Assembly: GCA_017408025.1 (NCBI GenBank)
Contig: JAFQVJ010000016.1
Location: forward strand, 1 to 42,609
DNA: 42,609 nucleotides
Direction of reading: 5' to 3'
Origin: Lachnospiraceae bacterium
GTDB taxonomy: Bacteria > Bacillota > Clostridia > Lachnospirales > Lachnospiraceae
Below the pieces are notes generated by a model. The model was given only the letters and a program-made list of their open reading frames with translations, was not told where the DNA came from and ran no database searches. A program made the translations under genes and the position numbers. This document shows, one piece after another, positions 29,449 to 32,066 of this stretch. Positions within the stretch are counted from its first letter, which is position 1; the number at the start of each line of letters is the position of its first letter.

Positions 29449-29865
29449 CTATTCCCCCCGCTGCCAATCCACTAAATCCTGTAATGTAATTCCATCCACA
29501 ACATCATTTACCGCATCATTAATTTTCTTCCATACTCTTGCTGTAACACAGCTGTCAATACGCTCGCAGGGATTATCTTTATCCTCCACACAGGATACTG
29601 GCGCAAGACTTCCCTCTGTTGCTCTAAGTATCATGCCTACAGTGTACTCCTCCGGCTTTTTCTTAAGCTGATATCCACCACTTGATCCTCTCAAACTTGT
29701 AAGATAGCCCGCCTTAGTAAGTGCCGATATTATCTGCTCCAAATACTTAACTGATATCCCCTGTCTGTCTGCAACATCCTTGAGTCGAATTGGCTCCTCT
29801 GTCTGATTTGTAGCTAAATCTATCATAACTCGTAACGCATATCTTCCTTTTGTCGATATCTTCAT
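29449..29865 (-). CDS. Rrf2-family regulator (IscR/CymR type)
   Basis: 138 residues from the ATG at 29865 (MKISTKGRYALRVMIDLATN), with GGAG nine bases upstream. A winged helix (ISVKYLEQIISALTKAGYLT then SLRGSSGGYQLKKKPEEYTV) is followed by three cysteines in APVSCVEDKDNPCERIDSCV. The spacing C-x7-C-x5-C is close to the cluster-binding pattern C-x5-C-x5-C of IscR, so [2Fe-2S] sensing is possible; CymR-type proteins lack it and respond through CysK. Here cysK is broken, which favours the cluster option. The same 22-bp site found upstream of its own gene also precedes other sulfur genes, suggesting autoregulation and a small regulon. Confidence 0.9.
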   Translation of the reverse strand: MKISTKGRYALRVMIDLATNQTEEPIRLKDVADRQGISVKYLEQIISALTKAGYLTSLRGSSGGYQLKKKPEEYTVGMILRATEGSLAPVSCVEDKDNPCERIDSCVTARVWKKINDAVNDVVDGITLQDLVDWQRGE

Positions 29866-29878
29866 AATACACATCTCC

Positions 29879-29900: not shown

Positions 29901-29980
29901 TTTTCTTATAATATTACCCCACCACCATTTCACTGTCAACGCACTTTTCCCACACTCCCCTCTTATGTATACGAGACAAT

Positions 29981-30612
29981 CCATATTATAGGAAGATTGT
30001 ATATTTTCGCCATCACAGGCGACTGCAATCTTTCTTTTTTATGCCCATCAAGTCTATTATCATCCTTACACCGATTATCTGTGCATATTTTAAATTCGCT
30101 TGTTTCGAGAACTCGGAACTTTCTAAACGCCGTTTTTCGAAAAGTTTATTACAGTTCGTCTTTTATATGTCAGACAATATTGCTACAAGCTGTGTGCCAT
30201 AGTAAGAACATACCATTGAAAAAATTGCGTGATTTTCTTAGCAGGTTCAGACGAGAATTACCTAGCCCCGCAAAATCACTGTTTGAATGAGCTCGCCCCC
30301 GAATTTCAATGGGGCGAGCGAGTGAGTTTGATTTGCGGGGCTATAATAAGGTTTTCTCGGCGAACCTGCAAGAAAATAGCAATTTTTTCAGGTATGTCTT
30401 GCTATGGCATACAGCTGTAGCTATTGTCTGCCTTCATAAAAGACGAACTACTTATTCGAAAAACGGCGTTAAGAAAGTTCACGAAACCTCTCAATGCGAA
30501 TTTAAAATATGCACAGACAATTCGGTGTGGAAGGAGCTATATATTTCCGAGGGCATAAAAAAGGAAGATTAGCAGTCGGTGTCAACTAAAAACTAATCTT
30601 CCTATAATATGG
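29981..30612 (+). ncRNA. Full-length self-complementary element (632 nt), candidate structured RNA
   Basis: No credible gene. The two halves pair along their whole length in nested order: 29981-29998 with 30595-30612 (18 of 18); 30020-30046 with 30551-30578 (one bulge, one G-U); 30078-30099 with 30496-30517 (22 of 22); 30117-30141 with 30455-30479 (24 of 25); 30153-30166 with 30436-30449 (14 of 14); 30171-30214 with 30391-30430 (several bulges); 30217-30228 with 30379-30390; 30232-30248 with 30362-30377; 30263-30274 with 30332-30343; 30291-30299 with 30311-30319. The loop is 30300-30310. Three arm differences (30033/30564, 30194/30410, 30203/30401) are all G-U pairs if the plus strand is the RNA, hence the strand. 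It fills the gap between rrf2 and the pdxT stop. Transcription is inferred; a foldback transposable element is the alternative. Confidence 0.65.
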
Positions 30613-30613
30613 A

Positions 30614-31189
30614 CTATCTCATATGAGATTGTACCATGTGGGAAAAGTACTCATGTATTCTATGGTCGTTGTCCAGTTCGGGGTGGAAGGACAAGGCAAG
30701 CTGGTTGTTATAGCGCACTGCAACTATGTGTCCATTCTCCTTGGATAATATGTCTACACCATTTTCTACACTGTCGATGTATGGTGCTCGTATAAAGGTC
30801 ATAGGTATGACACCTATTCCTTTGAATTCCTGTTCTGTATAGAAGCTGCCAAGCTGACGTCCGTATGCATTTCGCTTCACAGTGACAGGCAATGTTTTGA
30901 AGTATTCCCTATGGTCATTTTCCACTTTATCTGCAAGAAGAATCATTCCGGCACAGGTAGCCAAAACCGGCATTCCATCCTGTATTTGCTCCTTGATAGT
31001 GTCAAACATACCAAGCTCCTTTAGAAGCTTTCCTTGAACAGTACTCTCCCCTCCTGGCAGGATGAGACCATCATATTTAATGAACAAATCCTCCTTTTTT
31101 CTCAGCTCGACATAGGGAATACCCAACCTTTCCAGAACATTTTCATGCTCTGCAAATGCCCCCTGAACTGCTAATACTGCAATTGTCAT
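30614..31189 (-). CDS. pdxT: Pyridoxal 5'-phosphate synthase glutaminase subunit PdxT
   Basis: 191 residues. It starts MTIAVLAVQGAFAEHENVLE and has the glutamine-site motif GLILPGGESTVQGKLLKELG. The catalytic cysteine is in VLATCAGMILLADKV and the His-Glu pair in LALSFHPELDNDHRIHEYF. PdxT hydrolyses glutamine and channels ammonia to PdxS, forming the 12+12 PLP synthase. The ATG starts one base after the pdxS stop region, the usual pdxS-pdxT order. The stop lies two bases from the end of the self-complementary element, so read-through transcripts would carry that structure. Confidence 0.96.
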   Translation of the reverse strand: MTIAVLAVQGAFAEHENVLERLGIPYVELRKKEDLFIKYDGLILPGGESTVQGKLLKELGMFDTIKEQIQDGMPVLATCAGMILLADKVENDHREYFKTLPVTVKRNAYGRQLGSFYTEQEFKGIGVIPMTFIRAPYIDSVENGVDILSKENGHIVAVRYNNQLALSFHPELDNDHRIHEYFSHMVQSHMR

Positions 31190-31190
31190 A

Positions 31191-32066
31191 CTATTTTCCT
31201 CTCTCTGCCATCAAAAGTTCTATTTCCTGTTCATTGATACCTACCATTGCCTCTCCGAGGTCCTCAGAAAGTGATGCAATCAGAGCAGCATCCTTATAAT
31301 TAGTTACAGCCTTTACGATCGCATTTGCTCTCTTTTCTGGATTGCCTGATTTGAAGATACCAGAACCTACGAATACACCCTCTGCACCAAGCTGCATCAT
31401 CAACGCTGCGTCTGCTGGCGTTGCAACGCCACCTGCTGCAAAGTTTACAACCGGAAGCTTTCCATGCTCATGTACATATACTACTAAATCATATGGCACC
31501 TGCAATATCTTCGCTTCCTGAAACAACTCATCCTGACGCATAGCTGTAATCTTAGCTATTTCACTGTTCATCATACGCATATGGCGAACTGCCTGCACCA
31601 CATCACCAGTTCCCGGCTCACCCTTTGTACGAATCATAGATGCTCCTTCATTGATACGACGAAGGGCCTCTCCCAAATCTTTTGCACCACATACAAACGG
31701 AACATTAAACCTTGTCTTATCAATATGGTAGACATCATCTGCCGGTGACAATACCTCACTCTCATCGATATAATCAATCTCTATGGCCTCCAGTATCTGT
31801 GCTTCCACAAAATGTCCAATACGGCATTTTGCCATAACAGGAATTGACACTGCATCCTGAATACCCTTTATCATCTTTGGATCGCTCATACGTGATACAC
31901 CACCTGCCGCTCTGATGTCTGCTGGTATACGCTCCAAAGCCATAACAGCACATGCTCCTGCTGCCTCTGCAATCCTTGCCTGCTCAGGTGTGGTTACATC
32001 CATGATAACACCGCCCTTTAGCATCTGCGCTAACTCCTTGTTTAACTTATATCTGTTTTCTGCCAT
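31191..32066 (-). CDS. pdxS: Pyridoxal 5'-phosphate synthase subunit PdxS
   Basis: 291 residues, normal length. Typical segments: [40 protein letters not shown], the catalytic lysine in [20 protein letters not shown], the second lysine in [19 protein letters not shown], and the phosphate site [20 protein letters not shown] then FVGSGIFKS. It builds PLP from ribose 5-phosphate, glyceraldehyde 3-phosphate and ammonia. A GGAGG-like site precedes the ATG. It is divergent from the MocR/PdxR-type regulator gene at 32265, which probably activates it. The PLP made is the cofactor of several enzymes encoded nearby (NifS, the PatB-type lyase, the transsulfuration enzyme). Confidence 0.97.

Follow-up and report, generated by a model that had tools for sequence, protein, structure and literature searches.

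A MITE-like foldback element, probably mobile, at the centre of gene-end stem-loops in a Lachnospiraceae bacterium

RESULTS

A Foldback of 632 Nucleotides between an Rrf2-type Regulator Gene and pdxT

The window (the whole 42,609-nt stretch of Lachnospiraceae DNA analysed here) carries the pdxS and pdxT genes, which are followed, in the direction in which pdxT is read, by an interval of 632 nt and then by a gene of the same strand for an Rrf2-type regulator (Table 1). The first-pass annotation had named the neighbours of the interval as rrf2 and pdxT, and Pfam supports both names (Rrf2; SNO for PdxT). It had also described positions 29981-30612 as one single nested inverted repeat closed by an 11-base loop at 30300, and the repeat and the loop were both found where it had placed them. 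When the interval was folded in both directions, end-to-end self-pairing was predicted with -329.8 kcal/mol for the plus-strand RNA and -326.3 kcal/mol for the minus-strand RNA, against means of -143 (plus) and -145 (minus) for dinucleotide shuffles (20 per strand; z -26 and -28), and the two strands of the foldback element fold about equally well. The longest ungapped blocks of the arms of this rod (30, 26 and 26 nt) show a complementarity of 90-96%. The limits 29981 and 30612 stand for the inverted repeat but not for the pairing, which reaches 29943/30648 once the flanks are included; this outermost pair takes in the last codons of pdxT, the stop of which begins 2 bases beyond the rod. The interval contains three open frames of 63-97 aa with a best Pfam E value of 0.16, in agreement with the earlier statement that no ORF in it is credible, and it carries neither a transposase nor any other gene.

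One side of the hairpin into which the window copy is set consists of the last codons of pdxT, and the other lies beyond the rod (29943-29980), where the left flank resembles an inverted and diverged copy of the pdxT 3' end. Behind pdxT of the congener G003 (L067) a perfect hairpin, ACACCGAGTTGAAAACAACTCGGTGT, stands twice; it is unrelated to the rod.

Table 1. Genes and features at the locus of the window copy (positions in the window)
Feature	Position	Strand	Remark
Rrf2-type regulator gene (PF02082)	29449..29874	-	Next same-strand gene past the element
Left half of interrupted stem-loop (ACTTTTCCCACA ...)	29943..29980	.	Fold of the joined flanks
Foldback element, window copy	29981..30612	.	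632 nt; longest complete copy seen in the source genome
Left terminal inverted repeat	29981..29999	.	Common family form TCACATTATAGGAAGATTG, with ATAAT before it in many copies
Left subterminal small inverted repeat, GGAAGATTG ... CAATCTTTC	29991..30034	.	Possible local hairpin; similar in other copies
One-sided bulge of 7 nt, left arm	30146..30152	.	6-nt bulge at the same place in the separate congener fold
Apical loop of 11 nt	30300..30310	.	Centre absent from the 474-, 433- and 250-nt copies
Right subterminal small inverted repeat, GGAAGATTAG ... CTAATCTTCC	30563..30602	.	Read from the sequence
Right terminal inverted repeat	30594..30612	.	Inverted-repeat comparison
Right half of interrupted stem-loop	30613..30648	.	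Overlaps last codons and stop of pdxT
pdxT (PF01174, SNO)	30614..31189	-	Pfam; reads into the foldback element
pdxS (PF01680, SOR_SNZ)	31191..32066	-	Pfam

The Foldback Element Is Repeated in Its Genome

The source genome (G000), searched as an incomplete assembly of 2.35 Mb in 71 contigs, holds the sequence of the foldback element at 24 places, namely 4 complete copies, 19 copies cut by contig ends and 1 fragment at a contig start. Besides the 632-nt window copy, the complete copies measure 474 nt (contig C9), 433 nt (C68) and 250 nt (C7), and these three keep both ends and have lost the centre, some 380 nt of it in the 250-nt copy. All 19 cut copies reach a contig end or stop at most 13 bases from one, as is expected of a repeat, and because 8 of them hold the outer end of the left arm and 11 the right-arm side, the copy number lies between 15 and 23, plus the fragment. 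Mapped to the window copy, the other copies of this genome are 86.6-93.7% identical to it, whereas the arms of that copy match each other at only about 76%, which indicates that the arms had become unequal before the element spread. The earlier proposal of a specific regulator of pdxST is not supported, since the 15-23 copies lie behind various genes and three of the complete ones lack the centre.

In copy L036 (2087-2519) the outer ends of the arms are swapped, the right-type end being on the left and vice versa, as if the tips had recombined. Trees of the arms, with low support and a distant root, gave a hint, which they do not settle, that the window copy, L017 and L022 branch outside the copies with GGGGCTG ends.

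Among 40 relatives searched beside the source genome, the congener G004 was found to carry a complete copy, 69% alike over query positions 124-518, and a second, partial copy (C44); the other 6 genomes of the genus gave no copy at the sensitivity of this search. A draw of 397 genomes of the family, with 2 candidates scored per genome so that divergent copies may be missed, matched 4 genomes among those listed, the source genome and three weak ones (G091, G164 and G160), and G004, which may not have been in the draw, is not among the matches listed. The three weak matches were dropped, as they show no long foldback, and were taken as chance or unrelated hairpins. G091 has a lone 44-bp palindrome (L068, 1501-1549) with AAACGCCGT...ACGGCGTTT that resembles one block of a rod arm. 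A pattern scan of the genome_contigs collection returned 3 matches, one in Lachnospiraceae bacterium RGIG3161 (goat rectum), taken to be the same genome as G004, one in a Lewinellaceae genome and one in a phytoplasma. The plasmid and phage collections and the pattern scans of viral contigs gave no match to the foldback element, and the limited literature collection searched listed nothing on it by title or abstract start.

Copies Lie Behind Genes and at the Centre of Stem-Loops

When the positions of the copies were compared, the nearest ORF pointed at the element on 22 of the 27 flanking sides that are known (one-sided binomial p 0.0008 against one half), the count being made on the nearest mechanically called ORF of at least 60 aa and from bounds set by hand so as to include the outer stem. 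On 21 of these 22 sides the gap from the hand-set bounds was at most 50 nt. The nearest ORF does not point at the element in five cases: on the Rrf2 side of the window copy, at L016 and L019, on the right of L030, where the frame concerned (72 aa) is possibly no gene, and at the truncated copy L034. Only for complete copies are the two flanks known, L036 and L037 lying between converging ORFs and the window copy and L030 not.

The joined flanks (60 nt from each side) form a stem-loop centred on the element in all 5 complete copies, 4 from the source genome and 1 from the congener. On the plus strand, 31 pairs cross the junction in the window copy, 36 in L030, 42 in L036, 42 in L037 and 41 in G004, and on the minus strand the values are, in the same order, 36, 23, 21, 40 and 41. 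As a control, the same count was made at a fixed distance of 35 nt past the stop codons of long open frames in the window; the 29 control stretches, each 120 nt long with that point in the middle, gave a mean of 12.6 crossing pairs and a maximum of 29. However, when the centre was left free and the best point within 80 nt behind the stop was taken, the mean rose to 28.3 and the maximum to 41, with 9 of 29 stretches reaching at least 31, which weakens the argument from the hairpins and makes us somewhat less sure of the explanation that we favour. The flanking hairpins thus resemble the stronger hairpins found behind other genes, and their distinctive feature is that the element lies at their centre. 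The fold energy of the joined flanks (z -2.4 to -6.6, depending on copy and strand) is by itself a weak indication.

The interrupted stems of the five complete copies are of four kinds of sequence, ACTTTTCCCACA being that of the window copy, CTCCAATTCGCAAAG that of L030 and AACCTCTTCAACTCCC that of the congener. An outer stem of the CTGTTGCACAAT type was seen at 18 of the 27 ends examined, including those of L036 and L037, so that there the stem may be part of the mobile unit and not of the host; L017 and L022 have GAGACTGTCGCA, and in L020, L026 and L034 the end is altered or cut. The stems of the window copy, L030 and the congener copy are followed by no U-tract, and these hairpins are therefore not typical intrinsic terminators. 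The flanks outside the stem are often A-rich, that is, U-rich in a transcript leaving the hairpin. In the predicted folds of L036 and L037 the outer stem is paired with the rod inside it.

Ends of the Element and Possible Extent of a Mobile Unit

The copies with GGGGCTG ends have ATATAATTYACATTATRGGAAGATT as their common inverted end. With AATTYAC taken as the end of the element, ATAT flanks both sides of L036 and L037; the flanks of L030 (ATAT/ATGT) fit in 3 of 4 bases, and those of the window copy and of the congener copy do not fit. Because ATAT is self-complementary, as a palindromic target would be, a target duplication and an end of the repeat are here indistinguishable. An earlier model, in which TAA was duplicated and the ends were TATAATTCAC, was abandoned because it suits L037 and not L036; ATAT (or TA) suits both. 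Transposases of the families PF13358, PF01609 and PF13751 were found neither in the source genome nor in G004, and the single gene of a fourth family, PF01797, in the source genome (C45) has ends unrelated to the foldback element. Of the 8 genomes of the genus, G006 alone has PF13751, the IS1182-type transposase. At about 1-1200 of L103 (G000:C45) a gene for an IS200-type Y1 transposase (155 aa) lies upstream of that for a threonine-rich protein of 344 aa, and the stretches GGGGCAAAC...GACGCAAA on either side of the transposase gene have the look of what we take to be cyclic-di-GMP riboswitches.

The recurrence of the outer 16 nt at 18 of 27 ends raises the possibility that the mobile unit is larger than the rod and includes the outer GGGGCTGTTGCACAAT stem, which would then be an IS1182-like terminal repeat doubling as a terminator. 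Rod-free short palindromes would be deletion remnants of such a unit, and the stems of the window copy, L030 and the congener its decayed or older ends. Four rod-free palindromes of the CTGTTGCACAAT type are indeed present in the source genome (G000:C28, C43, C46 and C44), and the one in C43 reads, by eye, as a full copy would after a deletion between its direct repeats ATATAATT. Moreover, GGCTGTAGACAAAG beside the PF13751 transposase of G006, the other end of which lies outside the locus, is loosely like GGCTGTTGCACAA, and IS1182 ends presumably look like sequence of this GGCTGTAGACAAAG/GGCTGTTGCACAA type. Against the larger unit, divergence is higher in the outer 16 nt (0.170 per site) than in the 18 nt that follow inward (0.071), and the same 15-mer, GGGGCTGTTGCACAA, occurs in rod-free, terminator-like hairpins of other Lachnospiraceae, so that it may be a host terminator stem. 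Of the 397 genomes drawn, 8 besides the source genome contain a single exact match to this 15-mer (L114-L121), and the reversed pattern, used as a control, gave zero among the matches listed; by eye, 7 of the 8 sites in other genera form a hairpin with a differing loop and a T-rich tract behind it, and three of the 7 share their flanks and count as one locus. The outer stem may thus be a type of host terminator or a part of the mobile unit, the higher divergence leaning to the host and the recurrence to the mobile unit. We hold the larger unit to be the less probable of these delimitations, though an option of real weight; it is a variant of our best explanation, that of a mobile foldback element, and is compatible with its other steps.

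The Two Arms Covary

Homologues with random, non-compensating changes in the arms would have spoken against a conserved stem; the copies instead show compensating changes in the arms beyond chance. The pair counts rest on pairwise mappings and on an alignment, A3, of six copies and 166 pairs, from which L018, L019, L027 and L037 were left out. In A3, 31 pairs have changed on both sides, against 9.1 in shuffles (none of 500 reaching 31) and 1-6 in controls with slid pairs, and 92.8% of the cells pair, against 88.1 in shuffles and 40-45 in slid controls. Between the window copy and the congener copy, 208 of 246 pairs could be compared: 132 are unchanged, 27 double changes are paired and 10 broken, and of the changes on a single side 7 still pair and 32 are broken. 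Shuffles, in which nearly all pairs were covered, gave a mean of 6.9 double-paired changes and a maximum of 14 in 2000. The slid controls of this pairwise comparison also give 15-27 double-paired changes, because slid pairs differ at random, and it is the number of unchanged pairs that discriminates, 132 against 38-48. When the two sequences were folded separately, 134 of the 208 mappable pairs of the window copy recurred in the congener fold, and a one-sided bulge (7 nt in the window copy, 6 nt in the congener) was in place in both. Within the source genome, the 8 copies with both arms (L037, mapped over its right part only, being excluded) show 14 double changes, 13 of which pair, against 7.7 expected from the column rates. 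Core divergence amounts to 47 of 3459 paired cells against 41 of 851 unpaired cells, and the ratio of transitions to transversions (110:69 at paired and 57:60 at unpaired sites; Fisher p 0.03) shows a mild excess of transitions at paired sites. The covariation of the arms is strong, yet it is not specific to RNA.

Wobble Pairs Do Not Single Out a Strand

The first-pass annotation had taken three pairs that remain as G-U on the plus strand (30033/30564, 30194/30410 and 30203/30401) to mark that strand as an RNA. All three exist, but the window copy, compared arm against arm, has 7 differences that are G-U on the plus strand and 4 that are so only on the minus strand, besides 20 transversions and 54 gap columns, and the three pairs named are thus a selection. 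Nor do the other comparisons support the claim. One-sided changes with respect to the congener are G-U on the plus strand in 7 cases, on the minus strand in 6 and on neither in 20, and in the own-genome copies with both arms the corresponding numbers are 11, 14 and 11. In the half copies, set against the consensus partner, they are 15, 30 and 37, a lean to the minus strand (two-sided p 0.036). Sorted by arm, G-U cells (plus:minus) number 24:18 in the left and 18:41 in the right arm, and distinct single changes 13:9 and 15:21, which makes 28:30 in total. The paired double changes between window copy and congener are Watson-Crick in 27 of 27 cases, and in A3 only 3 of 33 double-changed cells end as G-U. 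Such an absence of wobble bias, together with Watson-Crick double changes, fits repair from arm to arm or template switching in DNA; the accessible text of PMC8794818 describes how template switching can create compensatory changes in stems. As an account of the covariation, template switching in DNA does no worse than RNA selection, and RNA selection is compatible with the data, particularly if transcripts enter the element from either side.

These results bear on the view that the rod is a structured non-coding RNA, or a long double-stranded 3' untranslated region, kept by selection on the RNA and dispersed only secondarily. The strong covariation with the congener, the bulge and the pairs shared by two separate folds, the better conservation of paired sites and their excess of transitions are all what an RNA would be expected to leave, and the placement behind genes makes transcription probable. 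On the other hand, neither strand has an excess of wobble changes, both fold about equally, one copy does without some 380 nt of the centre, and the 15-23 copies stand behind various genes. A covariance-model search of Rfam was without a match, in line with the earlier remark that no known RNA family has this shape, and a lone riboswitch-like or Rfam RNA was rejected on this ground and because the element is repeated in the genome. On balance, we consider this RNA view of the rod unlikely.

Less likely still is that the hairpin grew in place, by repeated template switching at replication forks that extended a gene-end palindrome and without any transposition: the likeness of the left flank of the window copy to the inverted pdxT 3' end and the capacity of template switching to create and repair stems (PMC8794818, accessible text) would suit it, but such growth cannot by itself account for one sequence standing in 15-23 copies at separate sites, and as the sole cause it is contradicted by that number; to the outer stem in the window copy it may still apply.

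DISCUSSION

An old foldback element was among the options offered by the first-pass annotation, and the many copies, the shared ends and the compensating arms support it. The copies lie beside different genes, share terminal inverted repeats, stand at the centre of stem-loops and have covarying arms. We therefore favour, with a probability of roughly 0.7 for this explanation as a whole, that the interval is an older copy of a non-autonomous, MITE-like foldback DNA element, restricted to its lineage, that sits at the tips of gene-end stem-loops. The term MITE-like refers to copies with different flanks, terminal inverted repeats and no genes. The element is probably mobile; we infer insertion, because no orthologous empty site is at hand.

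Dispersed imperfect palindromes include bcr1, ERIC, Correia elements and REP, which may likewise be transcribed and are, as far as is known, shorter than the foldback element. According to the part of a review of prokaryotic MITEs available to us (PMC10969869), MITEs are typically under 500 bp, and they share with the present element the lack of coding sequence, the terminal inverted repeats, the intergenic position, the many copies, the size variants and a stable predicted fold of the transcript. Unlike those MITEs, the foldback element is self-complementary over its full length, reaches 632 nt and lies at stem-loop tips, and a search limited to four transposase families found no related IS for it. 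In position it is like SPRITE of Streptococcus pneumoniae, with which, along with RUP and BOX, it was compared; SPRITE is described in the accessible text of PMC3049150 as an 18-bp duplex with a U-rich tract, similar in appearance to a Rho-independent terminator, that occurs preferentially near the 3' ends of genes and for which no IS partner is known, whereas here a rod of about 250 pairs lies inside such a hairpin.

The nearest precedent for the targeting of stem-loops is IS1272/TnSha1 of the IS1182 family. As far as the accessible parts of PMC4923244 and PMC5678879 go, these elements target hairpins without a consensus in primary sequence, as the foldback element may do, and without target duplication, and many of the target hairpins are terminators, several of them confirmed as such by RNA-seq. 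They differ from the foldback element, which has the stem on both sides and no transposase, in that they encode a transposase and remove the stem-loop or take its place. In one branch of the model given in PMC5678879 (same proviso), joining takes place at the loop, and it is the loop only that is duplicated, which is close to the pattern seen here.

On the explanation that we favour, a transposase supplied in trans would pick stem-loops, and insertion would occur in or near the loop. By zipping up, the self-complementary insert would then bring both sides of the interrupted host stem back together, and the hairpin or terminator at the gene end could form despite the insertion, with its loop replaced by the rod. 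The complementarity of the arms might be kept by template switching in DNA or by hairpin repair between them, perhaps helped by selection for re-closure of the hairpin, and the shorter copies would be deletions of the hairpin tip. The specific proposition that the element enters the loop of a gene-end hairpin, that its self-pairing re-closes the stem and that the host terminator goes on working is put forward tentatively, and we regard it as doubtful on the present evidence.

Should such selection for re-closure be real, it would explain why paired changes have preserved nearly 250 bp across two species, in an element free of genes. The element also offers a natural case of a long stem that covaries strongly without wobble bias, a warning that covariation by itself does not prove an RNA to be functional. 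Metagenome assemblies, too, are broken up by such repeats: of the 71 contigs here, 19 end in the element or at most 13 bases from it, and one further contig of the source genome begins with a fragment of it. If our explanation is right, the foldback element would be a nearly harmless genomic parasite that lives behind genes, where inserts could upset termination.
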